A stretch of 10,191 nt of DNA, from assembly GCA_900550025.1 (NCBI GenBank), contig URQP01000095.1:1-10191 (forward strand). Reading direction: 5' to 3'. Both the position numbers and the translations under genes were made by a program. A model generated the notes under the pieces. That model was given only the letters and a program-made list of their open reading frames with translations. It made no database searches and was not told the origin of the DNA. The stretch is from an uncultured Porphyromonadaceae bacterium. Its GTDB lineage: Bacteria; Bacteroidota; Bacteroidia; Bacteroidales; Muribaculaceae. Positions 1-10,107 of the stretch are shown piece after piece (the stretch's first letter is position 1; the number at the start of each line of letters is the position of its first letter).

Positions 1-52
1 CCGCTATTGTCACGGCCGCTATTGCCGATATTATGCGTTTCAGCCTTGTCAT
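1..52 (-). CDS. Start of a membrane protein, probably the partner sensor histidine kinase (partial)
   Basis: The first 17 codons are visible and the gene continues beyond the left edge. They read MTRLKRIISAIAAVTIA, a basic N-terminus followed by a hydrophobic run that looks like the first membrane helix of a sensor kinase. The ATG lies two bases after the TGA of the response-regulator gene. An in-frame GTG at 58-56 overlaps that TGA (GTGA) and is an alternative start. Such tight coupling behind an NtrC-family receiver protein is the usual place for the cognate histidine kinase, which would sense a periplasmic or membrane signal and phosphorylate the regulator. No catalytic domain is visible, so the kinase identity is inferred from position and the N-terminal membrane segment only. 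Confidence 0.55.
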   Translation of the reverse strand, partial: MTRLKRIISAIAAVTIA

Positions 53-54
53 GC

Positions 55-1383
55 TCACCCGATGTTGAAGCGTTTCATTTTGTTGTAGAGTGTCTGGCGC
101 GTTATGCCGAGCTTTTCCGCGGTGAGCGACAGGTTGCCGCCGTATTTCTTTATTGCGTCGGCAATCATACGCCGTTCCATGTCTTCGAGCGTGGTTCCGG
201 CATCTTCCGTCACCTTTCTGGAAGTGGCTATCTGCAAATCGCCGGCTTGTATCTCATTGCCGTCGCACACTATCACGGCTTTTTCCACTGTATGTCTTAA
301 TTCACGGATGTTTCCGCGCCATTCGCAGTTGACCAGCGCGTTCTCCGCTTCCGCGCTGAACCGTTCCACAGGGCGGGAGTAATCGGCGGCAAACGATGCG
401 AGAAACCGCCGGGCGAGCGGCATTATGTCCGCCTTGCGTTCGCGGAGAGGGGGAAGCTTGAGGTGGATTGTGTTGATGCGGTAGAGCAGGTCCTCGCGGA
501 ACAGTCCGCTGTCGGCCATCTGTTCTATTTCCTTGTTGGTGGCGCATATCAGCCGTATGTCGACGGGGATGCTTCCATTGCTTCCTACCGGGGTGACGCG
601 GCGGCGTTGCAGCGCGTTGAGCAGCTTCGCCTGTTGCGTAAGCGGCAAGTTGCCTATTTCGTCGAGAAAAAGCGTGCCTCCGTCGGCCTCTTCCATAAAG
701 CCTTTCCTCGACGATTTTGCGTCGGTGAACGCTCCTTTAACGTGTCCGAACAGCTCGCTTTCGAAGAGCGTCCCGGTTATTGCGCCCATATCCACGGCCA
801 CGAATTTCTTTGCCTGTCGCATCGACCGTGCGTGCAGTTCGTGTGCCAACAGATCCTTGCCGGTGCCGTTCTCTCCGGTAATCAGCACGTTGGCATCGGT
901 GGCGGCAACTTTCTCCACCGTGTCGTACAGACGTTTCATCACCGGTGTCTCTCCCCAGTACATTTCGGACGGTGTCCCGCCGCCTCCGGTAAGTTCGCAC
1001 CGCCGACGGTAGGCCATTTGCAGCGTTTCTACAAGCTTGCGGTTGTCCCACGGTTTCACCACAAAGTCGAAAGATCCGTCTTTCATAGCCCTTACGGCAA
1101 GCTCCACATCGGCATAGGCCGTGAACAGCACTACCGGGATTTTCGGAAAGTTGCGGTTTATCTCGTGCAGCCAGAACAACCCTTCGTTGCCGCTGTTGAT
1201 TCCTGACACGAAATTCATATCGAGCAGCACCACGTCGGTCTCCGACTTGCGCAGCAAGGCGAGCATCGTTTTCGGCGACGGCAAAGTTTCCACTTTCCCG
1301 AAAACGCTGCCGAGCAGCAGCCGCAGCGAAGTCAGGATGTTGGTGTTATCGTCCACCACCAGTATGTTTCCTTGTTTTTTCAT
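55..1383 (-). CDS. NtrC-family sigma-54-dependent response regulator
   Basis: This 442-residue cytoplasmic regulator has the three classic NtrC domains. The receiver (about 5-125) has acidic pocket D11/D12, phosphoacceptor D55 in VVLLDMNF, T88 and K110. The AAA+ domain (about 142-370) has Walker A GENGTGKD (170-177), a sigma-54 contact loop GAFTDA (217-222, canonical GAFTGA), Walker B GGTLFLDEI (235-243), arginine-finger region FREDLLYR (295-302) and sensor II WRGNIREL (355-362, where WPGN is usual). A Fis-type helix-turn-helix (about 400-442) ends in LGITRQTLYNKMKRFNIG. It should hydrolyse ATP to open sigma-54 polymerase complexes after phosphorylation. ATG 1383 is chosen because it places the ILVVDD strand at residue 7. 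The upstream TTG at 1419 would lie inside the promoter. Its likely targets are the paired palindromes upstream of tolC. The family call is secure; the target is inferred from context. Confidence 0.95.
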   Translation of the reverse strand: MKKQGNILVVDDNTNILTSLRLLLGSVFGKVETLPSPKTMLALLRKSETDVVLLDMNFVSGINSGNEGLFWLHEINRNFPKIPVVLFTAYADVELAVRAMKDGSFDFVVKPWDNRKLVETLQMAYRRRCELTGGGGTPSEMYWGETPVMKRLYDTVEKVAATDANVLITGENGTGKDLLAHELHARSMRQAKKFVAVDMGAITGTLFESELFGHVKGAFTDAKSSRKGFMEEADGGTLFLDEIGNLPLTQQAKLLNALQRRRVTPVGSNGSIPVDIRLICATNKEIEQMADSGLFREDLLYRINTIHLKLPPLRERKADIMPLARRFLASFAADYSRPVERFSAEAENALVNCEWRGNIRELRHTVEKAVIVCDGNEIQAGDLQIATSRKVTEDAGTTLEDMERRMIADAIKKYGGNLSLTAEKLGITRQTLYNKMKRFNIG

Positions 1384-1388
1384 CTCTA

Positions 1389-1420
1389 CAAATATACACA
1401 AAGTCGAGGGCAGAGGCAAA
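1389..1420 (-). promoter_or_regulatory. Bacteroidota primary-sigma promoter of the response-regulator gene
   Basis: On the minus strand the -33 element TTTG (1420-1417) is followed by 20 bases and then TATATTTG (1396-1389), a perfect match to the Bacteroidota -7 consensus TAnnTTTG. Transcription would start about five bases beyond the final G, near 1384, which is at or within two bases of the ATG at 1383. This implies a leaderless or near-leaderless message. It gives the regulator and the kinase a supply independent of the sigma-54 operon upstream. Confidence 0.8.
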
Positions 1421-1428
1421 TGAAAATT

Positions 1429-1497
1429 AACCTTATAACCATATAACCTGTTGCCGTAGGCAACTATAACCTTGCCGCCAATGCGGCAACATCACTC
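1429..1497 (-). repeat. Palindromic intergenic repeat, copy A (abuts permease B stop)
   Basis: A 69-bp element that is clearly similar to the one at 3823-3892. Shared blocks in plus orientation include AACCTTAT, CCATAT, TGTTGCCGTAGGC, CCTTGCCGCC and GGCAACATCA. It contains two perfect hairpins: GTTGCC-GTA-GGCAAC (1450-1464) and TTGCCGC-CAAT-GCGGCAA (1472-1489). It begins exactly at the TGA of permease B and ends just before the promoter of the regulator gene. It may act as an mRNA 3'-end stabiliser or a weak terminator. There is no clean U-tract, so I call it a REP-like repeat rather than a terminator. Confidence 0.7.
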
Positions 1498-3798
1498 GTA
1501 TTTCAGGCTCTCCACCGGGTTGGCTTGCGCTATCTTGTAGCACTGGTAGGTGACGGTGGCCACGATTATCACAGCCTGCCCGGCGAATGCCAATGCAAAC
1601 ACCCACCAGCTCATCGTGGTGCGGTAGGCGAAATTCTGCATCCATTCGTTGACGAAATGCCACGCCACCGGCACGGAAATCACGAACCCGACGAAAAGTA
1701 TCTTCAGATATTTGACGTTGAACATCCGGATTATCCCTGCCGTCGTAGAGCCGAACACCTTGCGCACGGCAATCTCGCGCTTGCGGTACTCGCTGTCGAA
1801 CAGCACCAGCCCGAACACTCCCATCACGCTTATCAGCACCGCCAGCGACGAGAACAGCATAATCTGTTTCGTCAGTTGCGACTCTTTCTGGTAGGTGTTC
1901 TCGAGTATTTGGTCGTAGAACGACACTTCGTTTGGATATTCCGGCTCGTATTTGCGGATTATTTTTCGAATGCCGTCCATTGTGTCGAACATGTTCGCCC
2001 CTTTCTTGACGCGCACGTAGCCGACCGACGTGTTGTCCCACCCTTTTATGCAGTTGAGAGCCATAGGCTCCGACGCTTCTGTCCATAGCGACGTGAAGTT
2101 GAAATCGTCGCAGATGCCAATGATTTGTGTGCCGAACACTTCCGCTCCCACTTTTATGTAGCGGGAGTTTTGTTTTTGTGCTGTGCGGTTGAAAATGATT
2201 GCGTTGCTGTCGTTAGGGAGGAAATCGCGCCCGTCGAGCAATTTGATGCCGAGCGTTTCCAAGAATCCCGGACTTACAGGTATGGAGTAGAACCACACCA
2301 TTTCATCTCCGCCCAAATTGCGTCCCCAACTCATTCCGACATTGCTCCCAATCTTGAAGCGGGAATATGCCACGCTTTCCACTTCCGGCAGTTGCTTGAG
2401 TTCGTTGGTCACGGCTTCAAGGTTGTCGCTTACTCCTTTGTTTGTCCCGAACAGCACCAATTCGTCTTTGTCGAAACCATAATCGGTGTGTATCAGGAAA
2501 TTGCGCTGCTTGGTGATGAATACGGCCGATATTATCAGCACTGAGGATGCAAATAGCTGTATCCATATAAGTGCGTTTCTGAGTGCCAACCCTTTAGGCG
2601 ACAATCCCAAACTCCCTTTCAATGCCACAGCCGGTGAGTAGGATGTGAGGCGTATGGCCGGATAGATTCCTGCGGCAGTCCCAAGAACGAGAGAAATTAG
2701 AGCTGTGGCAATGATAACAGGGAGGTAGCCGGTGAAACTTATTCCTGCCGTCGACAGATTGGCTATCGAAGTCATGGAAAAAAGCCATAGCAGCAGCAAC
2801 GAGATAATAAACGAGCATACGGAAATGACTGTCGATTCGACCGTGAGCAGGCATCGAAGGTTTTTTGTGGTCGCACCGAACACTTTGCGCGTGTTCACGT
2901 CTTTTATGCGTATTGGGGCGAGAGCGACGGCAAAGTTGGTGAAGTTGATGAATGCTATAATCAAAATAGCCAAGGCTACTGAAATGAGGATTATTTCCGT
3001 GTCGGGATTTACTTTTTCTGCCAATCCTGAGACAGGTATATTCTTTACATAGTGCAGTTTGGAAACGGGTGTGAAATCATATATTTTGCTGTCCCATGAT
3101 TTCCATTCTTTTGCATCTTTCGCCGCTATGCTGTCGAGCCGGGTTTTCAATTCGGCTACGGCCGCGGGATTGTCGATTCTGAACAGGCCGGCAAAGCTCA
3201 CCTCGTTAGAGCGTTTCAGCCACTTCTCGAAATCTATATTCGAGTTTTTGGCCGTTGAGTTTTCAGGGAAGTCCTCATACACACCGCCGATTGTCAGCTC
3301 CATGTCGTCGGCCAACCGTTTCCCTGTCACGTCGATGCTTTGGAAGTATTTCCGGGCAACGCTTTCCGGGATGATGACAGTGTTTTTTTCGGTAATGCTG
3401 CTTATAGAGCCGGCAATCATCCGGCAATCAATCATTCTAAGGAAAGTGGTGTCAACCTCCATCGTTTTAATAGAGGCATAATTGTTGTTGATTTTTGCAA
3501 GGGTTTCCTGTTGGTACGGGCTGATGAATGACGCCTCTTTGATGTGTGCCGACATTTTGCGTATGTTGTCGAACTCTGAGGCGCTAATCCATATTTTGTA
3601 GTTTCCGTCTTGATTGTAGCTGAGCAGGTAGAGATTGTCGGCATCGGGTACGGAGGAGTTGTAGGTGCGGTCGTAATACACCTGCATCATTATTATCATA
3701 AACACGGCAAAAGCCAGCGACAGCCCCAACAGGTTGAGGACTGCCGACAGCTTGAAACGCCGGAAAGCGAACAATATGTTTCGGATGAACCGTTTCAT
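1492..3798 (-). CDS. FtsX/MacB-type ABC transporter permease B (8 predicted TM helices)
   Basis: A 768-residue inner-membrane permease built from two FtsX-like halves. Helix 1 is at about 18-40 and is followed by a periplasmic MacB_PCD-like domain. Three helices lie at roughly 270-385, and a fifth helix begins the second half, with another periplasmic domain and three C-terminal helices. The coupling motif RKREIAVRKVFGST before the last two helices, and NTRKVFGATTKN in the first half, are the family's ATPase-contact segments. It ends in NPVESLKYE, exactly like permease A. It probably couples ATP hydrolysis by the separate ATPase upstream to mechanical export through the adaptor and TolC. ATG 3798 (MKRFIRNILFAF) matches the N-terminus of permease A. 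An upstream ATG at 3843 falls inside a palindromic repeat and is rejected. The family is certain; the substrate is unknown. Confidence 0.93.
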   Translation of the reverse strand: MKRFIRNILFAFRRFKLSAVLNLLGLSLAFAVFMIIMMQVYYDRTYNSSVPDADNLYLLSYNQDGNYKIWISASEFDNIRKMSAHIKEASFISPYQQETLAKINNNYASIKTMEVDTTFLRMIDCRMIAGSISSITEKNTVIIPESVARKYFQSIDVTGKRLADDMELTIGGVYEDFPENSTAKNSNIDFEKWLKRSNEVSFAGLFRIDNPAAVAELKTRLDSIAAKDAKEWKSWDSKIYDFTPVSKLHYVKNIPVSGLAEKVNPDTEIILISVALAILIIAFINFTNFAVALAPIRIKDVNTRKVFGATTKNLRCLLTVESTVISVCSFIISLLLLWLFSMTSIANLSTAGISFTGYLPVIIATALISLVLGTAAGIYPAIRLTSYSPAVALKGSLGLSPKGLALRNALIWIQLFASSVLIISAVFITKQRNFLIHTDYGFDKDELVLFGTNKGVSDNLEAVTNELKQLPEVESVAYSRFKIGSNVGMSWGRNLGGDEMVWFYSIPVSPGFLETLGIKLLDGRDFLPNDSNAIIFNRTAQKQNSRYIKVGAEVFGTQIIGICDDFNFTSLWTEASEPMALNCIKGWDNTSVGYVRVKKGANMFDTMDGIRKIIRKYEPEYPNEVSFYDQILENTYQKESQLTKQIMLFSSLAVLISVMGVFGLVLFDSEYRKREIAVRKVFGSTTAGIIRMFNVKYLKILFVGFVISVPVAWHFVNEWMQNFAYRTTMSWWVFALAFAGQAVIIVATVTYQCYKIAQANPVESLKYE

Positions 3799-3822
3799 TG
3801 CTTTTAGTTTAATATTGTTTTT

Positions 3823-3892
3823 AACCTTATTGCCATATGGCATGTTGCCGTAGGCGGCGATGGCCTTGCCGCCGGTGGAGGCAACATCATTC
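3823..3892 (-). repeat. Palindromic intergenic repeat, copy B (abuts ATPase stop)
   Basis: A 70-bp relative of the element at 1429-1497. It starts at the same place relative to a gene, at the TGA of the preceding ORF, and extends into the space before permease B. It holds the perfect palindrome TGCCATATGGCA (3831-3842) and a nested stem with outer arms GTTGCC/GGCAAC and inner arms GGCGGC/GCCGCC. The two copies differ by substitutions and one indel, and the indel breaks any shared reading frame, so they are not coding. Lying inside the operon, the structure could tune the ratio of ATPase to permease B. Confidence 0.7.
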
Positions 3893-4570
3893 CTTGTTGA
3901 TGACCGTAGAGATAATTTCGCCGTCGAGCATATCGATGATGCGGTGCGCGTAACCCGCGTCGCGCTGGTTATGGGTCACCATCACCACCGTAGTCCCCGC
4001 CTTGTTGAGCTCGGTAAGGATGTTCATCACTTCCACGCCGTTTTTCGAGTCCAAGTTACCGGTCGGCTCGTCGGCAAGAATCAGGTCGGGGTTGGAAACC
4101 ACGGCGCGCGCTATGGCCACGCGCTGCTGCTGTCCGCCTGAAAGCTGGTGCGGGAAATGCTTCGCGCGGTGGCTGATTTCCATACGGCGCATTATTTCCA
4201 ACACTCTCTGCTTGCGTTCATCGCCCTTGATTTTAAGGTAGGTCAGCGGAAGCTCGATGTTTTCCTGTACGGTGAGCTCGTCAATCAGGTTGAAGCTCTG
4301 GAAAATGAAGCCGATTTTCCCGCGGCGCAGGTATGTGCGGTCGCGCTCTCCGAGGGTGGTCACGTCCTTGCCGTTGAGTATGTATTTTCCAGATGTCGGG
4401 GTGTCGAGCAGTCCTAAGATGTTGAGCAGCGTGGTCTTCCCGCAGCCCGACGGACCCATAATCGCCACAAACTGTCCTTCTTCCACTTCAAAATCAAGGT
4501 TGTTGACCGCAATTGTCTCCACTTCGCTTGTGCGGAATTTCTTCGTAAGTTTTTCTGTCTGAATAAGCAT
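3887..4570 (-). CDS. ABC transporter ATP-binding protein, LolD/MacB type
   Basis: A 227-residue stand-alone nucleotide-binding subunit, the usual length for the LolD/FtsE/MacB-NBD family. All catalytic motifs are intact: Walker A GPSGCGKT (39-46), Q-loop Q91 in FIFQSFNL, signature LSGGQQQR (143-150), Walker B LILADE (163-168), D-loop NLDS (172-175) and switch histidine H200. It powers the two FtsX-type permeases from the cytoplasmic side of the inner membrane. In E. coli MacB this domain is fused to the permease, but here it is a separate gene between the adaptor (33 bases upstream) and permease B. Its stop codon sits at the edge of palindromic repeat B. The family assignment is secure. Which of the two permeases it serves, or whether it serves both, cannot be told from sequence. 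Confidence 0.96.
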
Positions 4571-4603: not shown

Positions 4604-5857
4604 TTACTTCAAGATAAGCTCGTCGCAGTTCTTGAACATCTCGTAGCCTGAAAGCACCACTTTCTCTCCGGGGTTCAAGCCTTCGACCACCTCGTAGTAC
4701 TGCGGATTCTGCCGTCCTATCTTTATGCTGCGGCGGTGCGCGGTGTCGCCGTCCTTGTCGAGCACGAATATCCACGTGCCGCCCGTCTCGTTGAAGAAAG
4801 TGCCGCGCGGAAGCATCACGCTTTTTGTGGGCTCGCCGAGCTGCAGGTTGATGTAGTATGACTGCCCTGTGCGTATGTTGTCAGGGCGCTTGCCTGCAAA
4901 CTCGAAATCGGTCTGGAACTTGTTCTCGCGCACATCGGGATATACTTTCTTCACCCGCAGCATATATGTGCTGTCCTGCCGCTCGAAGCGTCCCTCCAAT
5001 CCCGGTACTACACGATCGATGTAATGCTCGTCGATGTCGGCCTCTATCTTGTGTCCTGTAAGCACATTGATGCGGCCTATCATTTGCCCGGAAATGACGT
5101 TCTGCCCGGGCTCCACGTCGAGCATTCCCAATTCGCCGTCGATGGGCGCGCACACCGTCAGCTTGTCGCGCCGCTCGCGTATCATCGCAAGGCTGCGGCG
5201 CATATTCTCAAGGTCGTCCTCAAGCTGCGTAATCTGTATGTTGCGGTACAGCTCGTCCTGCTTCAGCCGCTCGTCCACCAATTTGCGCTTCTCCACGGTC
5301 AGCTCGTAGTCCTCTTTCGCCTTCAGGTAGTCTTCTTTCGACACCAAGTCTTCCTTATACAGCCGCTGGTATTGCTCGTAAGTGCGCTTCTTCTGGCGTT
5401 CCTCCATCTGGAGCTGTATCTTCTCAGTCTGGTTGTTGAGCTTGTCCTGCTCCATCGTCACCTGCGTGTTGCGCAGGAAGTTCTGCTTCTCGGCGAGGTT
5501 GGCCTCGGCGTTGAGTATTTCAAGGTCGAGATTGGAATTGCGCAGCTTCACTATGGGGTCGCCCTTCTTCACGGCAGCTCCCTCTTCCAAGAAAATCTGC
5601 TCCACTATGCCGCCCTCTTCCGGGCTAAGCTGCAACGAAGTTACCGGTTGCACCTGTCCCACGACGCGGATGTAGTCGTTGAACTCTCCGGCAATCACTT
5701 CACCGGTCGTCACCGATTCCCGGTCTATTCGCATCACCGACGAGCGGTTGCCATAGACCGCTATTATCAACACAACTGTCACGGCTACTGCCATGGCCGC
5801 ATATATCCATTGCTTGCCTGTCAGTCTGAATCCTTTTTTCTTTATTTCTATATCCAT
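4604..5857 (-). CDS. MacA/HlyD-like periplasmic adaptor (membrane fusion protein)
   Basis: A 417-residue periplasmic adaptor that bridges the inner-membrane permease and the TolC channel. A basic N-terminus and one membrane anchor (about 18-36, IYAAMAVAVTVVLIIAVYG) leave the rest in the periplasm. Two lipoyl half-motifs (about 66-108, with EGAAVKKGDPIVKL; and about 233-265, with APIDGELGMLDVEPGQNV) flank a long charged coiled-coil hairpin (about 112-232). Beta-barrel and membrane-proximal domains follow, ending near LNPGEKVVLSGYEMF. It lacks a lipobox, so it is anchored by the helix. It stops with a double TAA TAA 33 bases before the ATPase, and an 82-bp gap holding a hairpin repeat separates it from permease A. 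Exporters of this type carry antibiotics, peptides, lipids or toxins; nothing here singles out one substrate. Confidence 0.94.
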   Translation of the reverse strand: MDIEIKKKGFRLTGKQWIYAAMAVAVTVVLIIAVYGNRSSVMRIDRESVTTGEVIAGEFNDYIRVVGQVQPVTSLQLSPEEGGIVEQIFLEEGAAVKKGDPIVKLRNSNLDLEILNAEANLAEKQNFLRNTQVTMEQDKLNNQTEKIQLQMEERQKKRTYEQYQRLYKEDLVSKEDYLKAKEDYELTVEKRKLVDERLKQDELYRNIQITQLEDDLENMRRSLAMIRERRDKLTVCAPIDGELGMLDVEPGQNVISGQMIGRINVLTGHKIEADIDEHYIDRVVPGLEGRFERQDSTYMLRVKKVYPDVRENKFQTDFEFAGKRPDNIRTGQSYYINLQLGEPTKSVMLPRGTFFNETGGTWIFVLDKDGDTAHRRSIKIGRQNPQYYEVVEGLNPGEKVVLSGYEMFKNCDELILK

Positions 5858-5939: not shown

Positions 5940-8264
5940 TTATTCGTATTTCAAGCTCTCTACCGGGTTTGTGCGCGCAATCTTCCGGCACTGGTAGCTC
6001 ACGGTGGCAACCGTTATGGCTGCAAGCCCCGCGAAGGCCAGCGCGTATATCCACCAGCTCATCTCCGTGCGGTAGGCGAAATTCTGCATCCATTTGTCGG
6101 TGAAATACCATGCCGCCGGTATCGACAGCACACAGCTCACGGCAAGTATCCGCAGATATTTCGTGTTGAACATTCCCACGACGCCCGATGTCGTTGCCCC
6201 GAACACCTTGCGCACGGCAATCTCGCGCTTGCGGTACTCGCTGTCGAACATCACCAGCCCGAACACTCCCATCACGCTTATCAGAACCGCAAGGGTTGAA
6301 AAGAGGGTGATTTGTGTGGTCAACTTGCGCTCTTTCTGGTATGTGGCATCCATAATCTGGTCGTAGATTCTCACGTTGAACGGATAGCCGGGGTCGTATC
6401 TGTCGAGCACCTTGCGGATGCCGTCCATTGCCTCGAACATATTAGTGCCTTTGCGCACCCGCACGTTCAGATTACCCAGTGGATATGGCATATCGACGAA
6501 CATAACCGGCTCGGTAGGATTGTAGAGCGACGAGTAGATGACGTTGTCGCAGATTCCCACCACCGTGAAATGCTGTTTGCCGAAATTTATCTGCTTGCCG
6601 ACATTCATAACGTCGCCGAATTTCTCTGCTGTCAATTTGTTGATTATCACCGCCGCCGTGTCGCTGTCGTTGAAGTCGCGGCCCTCTAAAATCTTGATTC
6701 CCATCGTCGTCATATATCCGCTGCCGCAGAACATCGTGCGTGGGTCTATTTTGTCACCTTCCGGTGTCTGGAATACCCAGCCTTGCGAGTTTTTATCTTC
6801 GGCGAGCACGCTCCACGATGCCGATGCGTTCTCCACGAACGGCAAAGCGTGCATGTCGTTGACTATCGAGGACTTGTCGGCGGGGGTGTTGGCCGGAGGA
6901 TTGATGTCGCACACCACAATCTCGTCCTTGTCGAAGCCATAGTCGATGGAGCGCGTCATATAGTCGCGCTGCTTCTGCATCAGGCTCGCTGCCACAATGA
7001 GGGCGGCGGCCACAAAGAATTGTACTCCTACCATCACGTTGCGCATCATCTGCCCCTTGGGCGACAGCCCGAAATTGCCTTTCAGCACCACGGCCGGCGA
7101 GTAGGAAGTCATTCTCAACGCCGGTATTATCCCTGCAAAGATTCCGGTAAGCGCGGCGATTGCTATGGTCAACACCGTGACCGGCATATATTCCGTAAGC
7201 GATATTCCGGCAGTGGTTATGTTGACGAACGAAGTCATCGACAGCAATTCCACGAAAAGGAACGCCAGCAGGCACGCCACGACGCTTGTCAATGCCGATT
7301 CGGCCACGAGCGACAGCGTGAGCGACCTCCGCGTAGCGCCCATTATCTTGCGGGTGTTGATTGAGCGTATCCTCACCGGAATGAGGGCGTTGGAGAAGTT
7401 AGTGAAATTTATCACTGCAATCAGGATTGTCAGGATGGCAATCGATATGAGCATCTGTTCCGTCGATTCTTTTACGGGGGCTTCCAACAATCCGCTAATC
7501 TCCTTTGTGTAATGCAAATCTTTCAAAGAAACATAGTCGATTCCTTTGCGCATCTCCGAATTTATTTCTTTCAAACCGGCGTTGACACTTTCCCGGATTC
7601 CGTCGATGGCCGAAGGGTCGTCCACTTTGATGTACATTGTGAAACTGTTGAAACCCCAGCTTTCCCACAGGTCGGCGTACCACGCCGGATTAATCGGGGA
7701 ATAGACGATGTTTTTCATCGAGCTGTTGGCAGGAAGATCCTTGTATACGCCGCCCACGATGATGCTGCTGTCACGCGTCAGTGTCTTGCCCACCACGTCT
7801 ATCGAGCCGAAGTAGCGGCGCGCGAAACTTTCCGGGATAATGCCCGACTTCATGTCTTTCATGCAGTCGATGGTTCCGGCAACCATCTCGAAGCCGAACA
7901 CTTCCGGGAAGCTTGGCGACACCATCAGGAGCTTGTCTTTCACGGCCTTGTCTTCTACATAAAAAGTATAGCCCATGCCCATATAGTCGGTGTAGGCATA
8001 GTCCTTGATGTGGGGCGAGCGTCCGGCTATGAATTCCATCATTGGCGGGCTCATCGACGTGAAATCGCCGTATTCGTCAGTCACATTGTAAGCCATGAAC
8101 ACTTTGTCGTAATCCTTGATACCCTCGTTGTAGGTGCGGTCGTAATATACCTGCATCATAATTACTAAAAAGGCGGTGAACGCCAAAGCGAGGCCTATGA
8201 CATTGATTGCCATTGGCATTTTGTATTTGCGCGTTAGCGTGGCGAGGTTTCTGAAAACTGTCAT
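5940..8264 (-). CDS. FtsX/MacB-type ABC transporter permease A (8 predicted TM helices)
   Basis: A 774-residue inner-membrane protein and paralogue of permease B. Predicted helices lie at about 18-38, 270-292, 318-342, 360-384, 410-430, 654-673, 703-721 and 737-757. The large segments 40-265 and 435-645 are the periplasmic MacB_PCD-like domains. Family motifs include NTRKIMGAT (first half), SPAVVLKGNFGLSPKG between the halves, and RKREIAVRKVFGAT before helix 7; the C-terminus is NPVESLKYE. Each polypeptide thus equals two four-helix MacB units, so one chain or an A/B pair could form the export core. The gene starts 22 bases after tolC, clearly co-transcribed. A tract near its 3' end is almost identical at DNA level to permease B (90 of 92 bases). 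The substrate is not deducible. Confidence 0.94.
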   Translation of the reverse strand: MTVFRNLATLTRKYKMPMAINVIGLALAFTAFLVIMMQVYYDRTYNEGIKDYDKVFMAYNVTDEYGDFTSMSPPMMEFIAGRSPHIKDYAYTDYMGMGYTFYVEDKAVKDKLLMVSPSFPEVFGFEMVAGTIDCMKDMKSGIIPESFARRYFGSIDVVGKTLTRDSSIIVGGVYKDLPANSSMKNIVYSPINPAWYADLWESWGFNSFTMYIKVDDPSAIDGIRESVNAGLKEINSEMRKGIDYVSLKDLHYTKEISGLLEAPVKESTEQMLISIAILTILIAVINFTNFSNALIPVRIRSINTRKIMGATRRSLTLSLVAESALTSVVACLLAFLFVELLSMTSFVNITTAGISLTEYMPVTVLTIAIAALTGIFAGIIPALRMTSYSPAVVLKGNFGLSPKGQMMRNVMVGVQFFVAAALIVAASLMQKQRDYMTRSIDYGFDKDEIVVCDINPPANTPADKSSIVNDMHALPFVENASASWSVLAEDKNSQGWVFQTPEGDKIDPRTMFCGSGYMTTMGIKILEGRDFNDSDTAAVIINKLTAEKFGDVMNVGKQINFGKQHFTVVGICDNVIYSSLYNPTEPVMFVDMPYPLGNLNVRVRKGTNMFEAMDGIRKVLDRYDPGYPFNVRIYDQIMDATYQKERKLTTQITLFSTLAVLISVMGVFGLVMFDSEYRKREIAVRKVFGATTSGVVGMFNTKYLRILAVSCVLSIPAAWYFTDKWMQNFAYRTEMSWWIYALAFAGLAAITVATVSYQCRKIARTNPVESLKYE

Positions 8265-8286: not shown

Positions 8287-9606
8287 CTAATGGAGTTTGT
8301 TTGTGCGGTAATAGTCCACCAAGCGGCGTTTCACGTCGAAAAGCAGCCGGCAGCGCACGTGCTCGGCTTGCGACTCGAACCACGTGTTCATCAGTTTCTG
8401 CATGTCGAGGAAGCTCATCAGCCCCTCGTCGTATTTGCGCTTGGCGAACCGGTAGGCAATCGAGTCCGACTTTTCTTTGCCGGCCATCTTTGCCGCCTCT
8501 TTCTCCGCGTTGTCACGGTCGGTCACGGCCTGCTCCACGCTCGATTGCAGCTCGTAAAGCCTGCGGTCGTAGTCGAGACGCGCCTCACGGGCCTGATTCC
8601 TTGCCTTTTTTACCGTGTTCGAGCGCGACAGTCCGTCGAAAATCGGGATGCTCATCGAAACGCCCACATACTGCCCGAAATTCACGTCCATCTGTTCCCT
8701 GTAAGGCTGGTTCTCCGTACCGTAACGCTTGTAGTAGCTGTCGGACAATCCCGCTCCAATCGAGATTGTAGGAGCCCACGAGCCTTTCGCCGAGCGCAGC
8801 GAGTATTCGGCTATTTCCTTGTTCAGTTCGGCCTGCCGCATTATGGGGTTGTTGTAGCGTGCGAATTCCATCACTTCAGCCGCAGAATAATCCCCGCCGG
8901 CGTGATAAATCAAATTTTCCGGGCTGACAAGCTCAAGCGTGTCGGCCACCGGAAAATTCATCGTGTTTTTCAATTTAATTAATGAGTTTATGAACATGCT
9001 TTGCGTGGTAGTGTGGGTGTAGTCGTCATCGGCCACCTGCGCTTCCGCCTGACTCAAATCGACTGCGCTTTTCAGCCCCAGTTCCTTCATCCGTTGTGTC
9101 TGTACGAGCAGCGCGCGGCTTTCCTCCAGTTTCAAGCCTGTGATACGCAAAAGTTCCGTATAGTATTGCAGATTGACGTAGGCGTCGAGCACGCTGATTG
9201 CAATCTCGTCCTTCCGGCTCTGCAACGCCGATTCCGACAGCCTTTTCTGCGCCTTTGCCTGTTTGAACTGGCTGATAATCTGCCCTCCGGTGAATATGTC
9301 CCACGAGAGCGAAAGGCTGTAGCCGTTGCTCAACGTGCGCAGGTTGTCGTAGGTGTTGGTGGCAGGGTCGATGGAGCGCCCGAAGCTGCCTTGCAGCGAA
9401 AGCGAGGCTCCTACCGTCGGGAAGAACGAGCCTACGGCTTTCCTGTAGTCGAGGCGGTCGTTGTCGTGGGTCAGCTCCGCGCTCTTCACGTCGAAGTTAT
9501 GCTCCACGGCGTAGAGCATGCAGTCGTCGGCTGTCCATTTCCCGGAAGCCGAAGCCGATGCGCAGGCAATCAATGCCGCCATTATATAGCAATTTACTTT
9601 CATCAT
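8287..9606 (-). CDS. TolC-family outer-membrane efflux channel
   Basis: A 439-residue outer-membrane factor, the normal length for the TolC/OEP family. Residues 1-21 form a Sec signal peptide (hydrophobic YIMAALIACASASASG). The mature protein shows two OEP repeats rich in long amphipathic helices, the Bacteroidota-typical GRSIDPATNTY strand segment, and SWDIFTGGQI and SMSIPIFDGLSRSNTVKKA at equivalent places in the two repeats. As a trimer it would form the exit duct for the adaptor-permease complex. It is the first gene of the operon. ATG 9606 (MMK) is used, although the second Met at 9603 is equally possible. The sigma-54 element at 9630-9646 predicts transcription from about 9619, giving a leader of only about 13 bases with no evident Shine-Dalgarno sequence, which is usual in this phylum. 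Confidence 0.95.
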   Translation of the reverse strand: MMKVNCYIMAALIACASASASGKWTADDCMLYAVEHNFDVKSAELTHDNDRLDYRKAVGSFFPTVGASLSLQGSFGRSIDPATNTYDNLRTLSNGYSLSLSWDIFTGGQIISQFKQAKAQKRLSESALQSRKDEIAISVLDAYVNLQYYTELLRITGLKLEESRALLVQTQRMKELGLKSAVDLSQAEAQVADDDYTHTTTQSMFINSLIKLKNTMNFPVADTLELVSPENLIYHAGGDYSAAEVMEFARYNNPIMRQAELNKEIAEYSLRSAKGSWAPTISIGAGLSDSYYKRYGTENQPYREQMDVNFGQYVGVSMSIPIFDGLSRSNTVKKARNQAREARLDYDRRLYELQSSVEQAVTDRDNAEKEAAKMAGKEKSDSIAYRFAKRKYDEGLMSFLDMQKLMNTWFESQAEHVRCRLLFDVKRRLVDYYRTNKLH

Positions 9607-9629
9607 TCGATTTGTTTTACCATATAATG

Positions 9630-9646
9630 TGCAACGACCTTGCCAA
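9630..9646 (-). promoter_or_regulatory. Sigma-54 (RpoN) -24/-12 promoter of the export operon
   Basis: Read on the minus strand this is TTGGCAAGGTCGTTGCA. Against the sigma-54 consensus YTGGCACGRNNNTTGCW it differs at a single position (C to A after TGGCA). The invariant GG and GC dinucleotides are separated by exactly 10 bases. The -12 C is at 9631, so the predicted start is near 9619, 13 bases before the tolC ATG. No TAnnTTTG primary-sigma box is present between here and tolC. The operon also contains a sigma-54 activator gene, which independently supports the call. Confidence 0.85.
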
Positions 9647-9697
9647 AACGGTAATGTTAAGATAATCAGCGGTGTGCGGAAACAGTAAAATAAAAAG

Positions 9698-9714
9698 TGT
9701 CAAATAATTTGACA
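9698..9714. promoter_or_regulatory. Promoter-proximal activator-binding palindrome (UAS 1)
   Basis: TGTCAAATAATTTGACA is a perfect palindrome with 8-base arms around a single central A. It lies at -79 to -95 from the predicted sigma-54 start, a normal enhancer distance. Dimeric Fis-type domains of NtrC-family activators bind sites of this size and symmetry. Binding by the regulator encoded at 55-1383 is inferred. Confidence 0.65.
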
Positions 9715-9718
9715 TTGC

Positions 9719-9735
9719 CGTCAAATTGTTTGACA
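9719..9735. promoter_or_regulatory. Promoter-distal activator-binding palindrome (UAS 2)
   Basis: CGTCAAATTGTTTGACA repeats the GTCAAA-nnn-TTTGAC pattern of the neighbouring site. Its centre is at 9727, 21 bp from the centre of UAS 1 (9706), so both sites face the same side of the helix. It lies at -100 to -116 from the predicted start. Paired, in-phase sites fit cooperative assembly of an AAA+ activator hexamer. Confidence 0.65.
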
Positions 9736-9761
9736 CTTTTAAGAGTTGCAGCGGACGATCC

Positions 9762-9875: not shown

Positions 9876-10064
9876 TTATTTAGCTCTTTTTTTATTAGTC
9901 AATATCAATCCTGCAATCAATAATGAAGCGGCAACTGCAAAACTTAAGCCATAGACCGCCAATTTCATATTTTCCATATCCTTGAATAAGGATGCGATGA
10001 ATATGCCGGTTAGTACATATTTAGATATGTCGATAAGGTAGTTGCCTAATTTTTCTTTCCACAT
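9876..10064 (-). CDS. DUF6722-like small membrane protein, 62 residues
   Basis: It begins MWKEKLGNYLIDISKYVLTG and has two hydrophobic helices (about 9-27 and 35-55) with a short charged turn (KDMENMK) and a basic end (TNKKRAK). The pattern of a basic start, GNYLIDISKYVLTGIFIASLF and a second helix fits the small Bacteroidota family DUF6722 as I remember it. The start at 10064 is chosen because it has AAGG eight bases upstream and a well-placed promoter; a longer TTG reading from 10106 would lie inside that promoter. It is the first gene of a two-gene operon with the 37-residue peptide. Its function is unknown, and a link to the export operon is not implied because it has a separate primary-sigma promoter. 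Confidence 0.75.
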   Translation of the reverse strand: MWKEKLGNYLIDISKYVLTGIFIASLFKDMENMKLAVYGLSFAVAASLLIAGLILTNKKRAK

Positions 10065-10075
10065 CTGCCTTGTTG

Positions 10076-10107
10076 CAAATATAGTGAAAGGCGAGAGCAA
10101 AGACAAA
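10076..10107 (-). promoter_or_regulatory. Bacteroidota primary-sigma promoter of the small-membrane-protein operon
   Basis: The minus strand has TTTG (10107-10104), 20 bases, then TATATTTG (10083-10076). Elements and spacing are the same as in the promoter at 1389-1420. The predicted start is near 10071, giving a leader of about 7 bases that includes AAGG. This placement supports the ATG at 10064. Confidence 0.8.

Follow-up and report, generated by a model that had tools for sequence, protein, structure and literature searches.

The DNA analyzed here (the window) is a stretch of 10,191 nucleotides from a Muribaculaceae bacterium near Candidatus Limisoma faecipullorum (TolC identity 98%). A preliminary description had read its genes as an ABC export operon followed by an NtrC-family regulator and, at the left edge, a kinase, and that order is borne out on the minus strand, where tolC comes first, then a permease, an HlyD adaptor, an ATPase and another permease, and after these the regulator and the beginning of a histidine kinase gene:

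8287-9606, minus strand: TolC-family outer membrane channel (PF02321)
5940-8264, minus strand: permease 1, FtsX/MacB-type and duplicated (PF12704, PF02687), ADOP/DarB-like, under those cut-offs
4604-5857, minus strand: HlyD-type periplasmic adaptor
3887-4570, minus strand: ABC ATPase of the MacB/LolD/DarD type
1492-3843, minus strand: permease 2, FtsX/MacB-type and duplicated
1389-1420, minus strand: housekeeping-type promoter of the regulator, with TTTG at 1420-1417, 20 further nucleotides and TATATTTG at 1396-1389
55-1383, minus strand: NtrC-family enhancer-binding response regulator with receiver, AAA+ and Fis-type HTH domains, start codon ATG at 1383
1-52, minus strand: first codons of the partner histidine kinase, which runs off the left edge

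Domain profiles thus find all the parts of a tripartite exporter of the MacAB-TolC type, namely a TolC channel, an HlyD adaptor, an ATPase and a MacB/FtsX permease, and no pump protein of the window reaches the curated cut-offs for DarB, DarC, DarD, MacA or MacB. A small DUF6722 gene (9876-10106) lies 270 bp upstream of tolC on the same strand, and the gap between permease 2 and the regulator (1430-1490) holds, as judged by eye, two short GC-rich inverted repeats without a T run. The genome of one relative (G004) carries an rpoN gene with all three Pfam domains (L082 1231-2685), 3.6 kb upstream of the pump operon and on the same contig.

The region between the DUF6722 gene and tolC carries the elements on which our interpretation turns:

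9630-9646, minus strand: predicted sigma-54 -24/-12 element TTGGCAAGGTCGTTGCA, with a predicted start near 9619
9652-9676, minus strand: candidate symmetric IHF-type element CACACCGCTGATTATCTTAACATTA, agreeing at 11 of 15 consensus positions, its center 19 bp upstream of the T in TGG
9698-9714, minus strand: predicted proximal enhancer palindrome TGTCAAATTATTTGACA, 17 bp and perfect, its center 21 bp from that of the distal one
9719-9735, minus strand: predicted distal enhancer palindrome TGTCAAACAATTTGACG, 17 bp with one mismatch

The -24/-12 element is, as had been proposed, one mismatch away from consensus (YTGGCAYN5TTGCW) with the GG-N10-GC spacing exact. By itself such a match is weak evidence and lies within chance. 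The window holds 10 matches with at most two mismatches where 5.5 are expected, including one other single-mismatch match, and when the 269-bp intergenic region is dinucleotide-shuffled, 58 of 3000 shuffles yield a site on the tolC strand that scores at least 0.9 in a weight matrix of our own built from the consensus. The palindrome pair is far beyond chance: two such palindromes 17-42 bp apart, with up to three mismatches in each, appeared in none of 3000 shuffled versions of the intergenic region, nor in any of 200 shuffles of the whole window. When the GG of TGG is counted as -25/-24, the pair spans -116 to -79, and here the position and the 21-bp spacing given in the preliminary description stand, while the second palindrome falls one outer base short of the full 17-mer that had been quoted.

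Orthologous tolC promoters had been suggested as a check, and in the two genomes with close orthologues, G001 (98% identical TolC) and G004 (82%), both the palindromes and the -24/-12 element are conserved and the flanks have diverged. Across the three species TTTGGCAARRTYGTTGY and the palindrome arms are kept, and the palindrome spacers and flanks have changed; the arms are identical in G001, two changes fall in the proximal palindrome of G004, and the spacers are altered in both. What holds for the close orthologues fails for the most part further out, the promoter being present at just 1 of the 22 loci (L014-L035) of distant TolC homologues from the family and the order.

The palindrome pair can also be sought with no promoter specified, as TGTNNAANNNTTNNACA, 4 bp and TGTNNAANNNTTNNACA again with at most two mismatches. 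We found this pattern in 36 genomes out of 347 from Muribaculaceae and in 63 out of 393 from Bacteroidales, compared with 3 of 347 and 21 of 393, respectively, for the reversed pattern that served as control; because the reversed pattern matches there too, some of the 63 Bacteroidales matches are chance. The scan of related genomes for a pair upstream of a sigma-54 box, which had likewise been recommended, gave a sharp result in 60 pairs drawn automatically from 30 of the 36 Muribaculaceae and 30 of the 63 Bacteroidales genomes. A sigma-54 site scoring at least 0.8 lies 90-94 bp from the pair start in 26 of these (14 and 12) and is absent from that interval in the other 34; the remaining 295 offsets together hold 14 such sites (7 and 7), so that about 0.24 would be expected in five offsets over the 60 pairs. 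The distance in the window is 90 bp, and in a wider, partly hand-chosen collection of 36 non-redundant promoters the offsets are 90 bp (2 promoters), 91 bp (11), 92 bp (9), 93 bp (13) and 94 bp (1). This near-fixed spacing spans DNA whose first 20 nucleotides after the pair show a similarity of 0.293, barely above the 0.267 given by composition. The set of 54 promoters examined for their target genes spans about 19 genera and 11 families, with the start codon called 1 to 328 bp past the box.

Beyond the order, a class-wide search with at most one mismatch found the pair in 7 of 295 genomes, namely G001 and G451, which belong to the same order, and five outside it. One of these five was inspected (G901, L201): a similar pair and a sigma-54-like box are 103 bp apart, a distance longer by about one helical turn, and the pair is flanked, by eye, by a diverging response regulator gene and, on the opposite side, by genes for an ATPase and an FtsX-type permease. 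A second class of pair, made of TGTGGAA/TGTAGAA palindromes, was seen at L081 9904 (G001), L083 8398 (G004) and L156 9043 (G406) where the distance to the sigma-54 site is 112 or 115 bp and exceeds that of the main class by about 21 bp, and the genomes that hold it also hold a different class of regulator (DRKTLYNK in the HTH). Paired TGTGCAACSRTTGCACA-type sites 21 bp apart, with the look of a LacI operator, occur in other Muribaculaceae (L047, L049, L051, L052, L054, L057-L059, L061, L064, L066 and L068); having no sigma-54 site at 90-94 bp, they were set aside.

Aligning the promoters on the -24 box brings out a further conserved block that the preliminary description had missed. It sits between the palindrome pair and the promoter, reads TAA-N4-YTGATWATCAR-N4-TTA, and is centered 19-20 bp upstream of TGG, its halves resembling two opposed IHF-type half-sites. 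Since the pattern was derived from the same promoters, it was tested on ten held-out promoters from outside that set, and the best match with a center anywhere from -40 to -12 fell at -19 to -21 in all ten. Their scores of 7-11 (mean 9.9 out of 15) compare with a mean of 6.98 and a maximum of 8.5 in shuffles, and none of 5000 shuffles reached the observed mean. As a general partner of Bacteroidales sigma-54 boxes the element is unsupported: together with any -24/-12 box it occurs correctly spaced in 171 of 344 genomes and displaced by 4 bp in 219 of them, with no enrichment, and we therefore claim it for the exporter regulon alone.

Whether this block is a bend site for IHF or HU is a finely balanced question. 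The IHF consensus is WATCAANNNNTTR, and a classical IHF site is not fully symmetric. The fit to that consensus at -19 averages 5.42 of 9 positions against a null maximum of 4.33, yet at least 7 of 9 are reached in just 13 of the 36 promoters. The element, by comparison, is fully symmetric, and its coupling to sigma-54 boxes is not seen genome-wide, so a reader might reasonably take it for the operator of some other transcription factor or for an intrinsically bent stretch, an alternative to which we give a little less than even odds. What keeps us inclined to the bend site is that both halves of the element read WATCARNNNNTTR in register. Its location, between enhancer and promoter, is moreover the place where IHF often aids looping according to the available part of a review (PMC7057263).

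The regulator encoded beside the pump is NtrC-like by its receiver, sigma-54 AAA+ and Fis HTH domains, which define the family, and its closest solved relatives are NtrC-family proteins: 436 residues align to 4l4u, and the receiver matches 2qr3, which we take to be a Bacteroides fragilis entry, over 118 residues. The receiver motif MNF..G.EGL that it has in common with 2qr3 marks 36 of the 43 members of its clade and none of 23 other regulators. Its contact with sigma-54 is putative, as the exact GAFTGA contact loop is not present in the window regulator, which has GAFTDA instead. The fifth position of this loop is other than glycine in 36 of 43 clade members compared with 5 of the 23 other collected regulators; the variants seen in those 36 are GAFTDA, GSFTDA, GSFTNA, GSFTSA or GAYTDA.

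This clade and the palindrome pair tend to occur together. When 31 regulator loci of 12 genomes are compared with the window regulator, 10 reach at least 460 bits and the others 204-396, and all five loci that also hold a pair belong to those 10. Of the 63 genomes with a pair, 24 have a best regulator of at least 460 bits, as against 7 of 63 pair-negative ones (the first 63 of 330 negatives listed). Even in pair-negative genomes, six of ten regulator loci have a pair (gap 5-6) with a sigma-54 site at 92-95 bp and four have none, and this composite matched nowhere in 836 kb of shuffled sequence. The linkage is not strict, a regulator of at least 460 bits being absent from 39 of the 63 pair-positive genomes (for example G510, best 302). 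Paired palindromes about 100 bp upstream that are associated in this loose manner with a regulator clade are what we take to be a predicted enhancer.

The Bacteroidetes housekeeping promoter consensus is TTTG-N19/20-TAnnTTTG. Such a promoter precedes the regulator, with TATATTTG lying ahead of the start codon by 5 bp in the window and by 4 bp in G001, so that regulator and kinase need not be part of the pump operon; in G001 the regulator-kinase pair stands on the opposite strand, about 5 kb from tolC. The kinase start in the window (52-1) resembles that of the kinase following the regulator in G001 and G004. Hydrophobic N-terminal segments in 25 inspected partner kinases are consistent, by hydropathy only, with two closely spaced membrane helices, and the one kinase that was scanned (from G001) matched only HATPase families, and no HisKA, at a Pfam E-value of at most 0.001. 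Kinases with so short a loop suggest a signal that comes from the membrane or from the exporter itself.

Exporter genes are the usual destination of the composite promoter, as 46 of the 54 lead into runs with TolC, FtsX/MacB permease, ABC ATPase or HlyD genes. The first gene among these encodes TolC in 20 cases, a permease in 21, an ATPase in 4 and another product in 1; the remaining eight promoters divide into four without a called gene and four with other first genes. At L130 (G451) one promoter precedes, by eye, a serine-hydrolase-like gene and not an exporter. Several genomes hold more than one pair. All five pairs of G633 have a sigma-54 site at 92-93 bp; one adjoins the sole clade regulator (542 bits; the next scores 310), two lead to permease genes and two are without a called gene. 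G550 has four, one adjoining a 541-bit regulator and the other three leading into permease or ATPase genes, with a second regulator at 420 bits; G451 has nine, of which five were inspected, and two regulators above 460 bits; and G543, G627 and G689 have many relatives. A single regulator per regulon is not universal. The circuit of kinase, regulator, paired enhancer and pump operon that the preliminary description had predicted therefore survives in its parts and as a supported reading, with two amendments: regulator and kinase, having their own promoter, need not be counted to the pump operon, and "dedicated" is too narrow a word where, as in G633, G550 and G451, the operator precedes exporter genes unlinked to the regulator.

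The link between pair and regulator leaves some room for another possibility, namely that some unrelated repressor or activator uses the pair as its operator and that the neighboring NtrC-family regulator acts elsewhere. The binder is assigned to the site by association only, and the look-alike TGTGCAACSRTTGCACA pairs of other Muribaculaceae do without a sigma-54 site at 90-94 bp. We nevertheless consider this unlikely, since the pair adjoins regulators of one clade at many loci, the composite site is present at six of the ten regulator loci that were held out, and the DRKTLYNK class of regulators co-occurs with a different pair, that of the TGTGGAA/TGTAGAA type. Less probable still is that tolC is transcribed mainly by way of the DUF6722 gene or another vegetative promoter and that the sigma-54 box is a relic. 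The DUF6722 gene is indeed co-directional and close, and an equally good box is not rare in shuffled sequence (the 58 of 3000 above), but in G001 and G004 the DNA between tolC and the upstream gene has diverged, a different gene occupies the place of DUF6722, and box and pair are retained all the same.

Least probable of all is that the long inverted repeat represents the hairpin of an intrinsic terminator with the palindromes as its stem and not as protein sites; RNA in the tolC direction does fold (-23 kcal/mol, z -6.8, 200 shuffles) with a U run after it, and the DUF6722 gene upstream is co-directional, but we reject this reading for the divergent upstream gene at half of the promoters, where the nearest upstream ORF of at least 100 aa points away (27 of 54, with 25 co-directional and 2, including the window, without such an ORF) and leaves nothing to terminate, while such folding is expected of any pair of 17-bp palindromes and the 90-94 bp spacing to the sigma-54 site goes unexplained.

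We thus favor, with a probability of about 0.85, the reading that the region upstream of tolC is the enhancer-promoter of a sigma-54-dependent exporter regulon. The conserved elements, their near-fixed spacing, their placement before exporters and their association with one regulator clade can be read from the sequences; which protein binds which element, the phosphorylation, the bending and the direction of control are what we infer from them. We postulate that a membrane histidine kinase, with two closely spaced membrane segments by hydropathy, would phosphorylate the NtrC-family regulator, two dimers of which could then occupy both palindromes (-116 to -79) from the same side of the helix, helping to assemble the AAA+ ring. 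At the symmetric element, which lies directly upstream of the -24 box, an IHF/HU-family architectural protein would put a bend into the DNA, and this would let the ring meet and open the sigma-54 polymerase waiting at -24/-12, whereupon tolC and the permease-adaptor-ATPase-permease genes would be transcribed. Regulator and kinase would be supplied from their own housekeeping-type promoter.

It is tempting to go further and speculate that Bacteroidales possess a multi-operon exporter regulon built on a rigid three-part sigma-54 enhancer, in which paired activator sites, a palindromic bend site for a homodimeric IHF-like protein and a -24/-12 element stand at near-fixed distances and are served by a GAFTDA activator. 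We offer this broader proposal tentatively, as one that may well prove wrong. If true, the normally flexible bacterial enhancer would exist here in a stereospecific form. The system in any case puts forward an operator, a regulator and an architecture that can be tested as the means of exporter control in an order prominent in the gut, for which we found few mapped sigma-54 regulons. Its natural series of enhancers with near-invariant spacing should be useful for learning how far enhancer geometry matters, and from the symmetric middle element one would expect a specific DNA-bending partner.

Sigma-54 has been tied to the cell exterior (Francke et al., 2011; PMC3162934), and sigma-54 promoters have been mapped in Flavobacterium psychrophilum (PMC9723704). 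A matrix-based study of 2025 reported COG0577 FtsX-like ABC permeases to be enriched under sigma-54 in Bacteroidia and termed this the first evidence (PMC12316311). The available parts of these three papers contain neither this operator nor this geometry, the available part of a paper on the iron response (PMC10434189) holds nothing tied to the exporter circuit, and among the matches listed in the open PubMed Central literature we found no paper on this operator. Within the literature searched, the operator, the geometry, the symmetric element and the assignment of the regulator appear to be new. The novelty suggested in the preliminary description thus appears to hold for the operator and is lost for sigma-54 control of FtsX-type ABC permeases in Bacteroidia, which had been predicted before (PMC12316311, as far as its available text goes).

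That earlier prediction concerns the same class of target gene, COG0577 FtsX-like permeases, under sigma-54; it deals with -24/-12 boxes and enriched families, and the terms IHF and "upstream activat-" are absent from the main text as available (PMC12316311). In general, enhancer sites are placed about 100-150 bp upstream, with looping that is often assisted by IHF (PMC7057263, available part), and the closest parallel in architecture is perhaps E. coli pspA under PspF, which according to the accessible part of its description has two enhancer sites, a sigma-54 box and IHF-assisted looping, activation being lost without IHF (PMC3709507). The present system is unlike pspA in its receiver-domain response regulator, its operator, its near-fixed spacing, its symmetric middle element and its ABC exporter targets. 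As for the pump, it shares with MacAB-TolC and darobactin DarBCD the FtsX-type permeases, a MacB/DarD-like ATPase, an HlyD adaptor and a TolC channel, and differs in falling under the curated cut-offs and in having two separate long permeases. The regulator, finally, has the receiver, AAA+ and Fis-type HTH domains of the NtrC1 and ZraR type, from which it is set apart by its GAFTDA loop and the MNF..G.EGL motif of its receiver.
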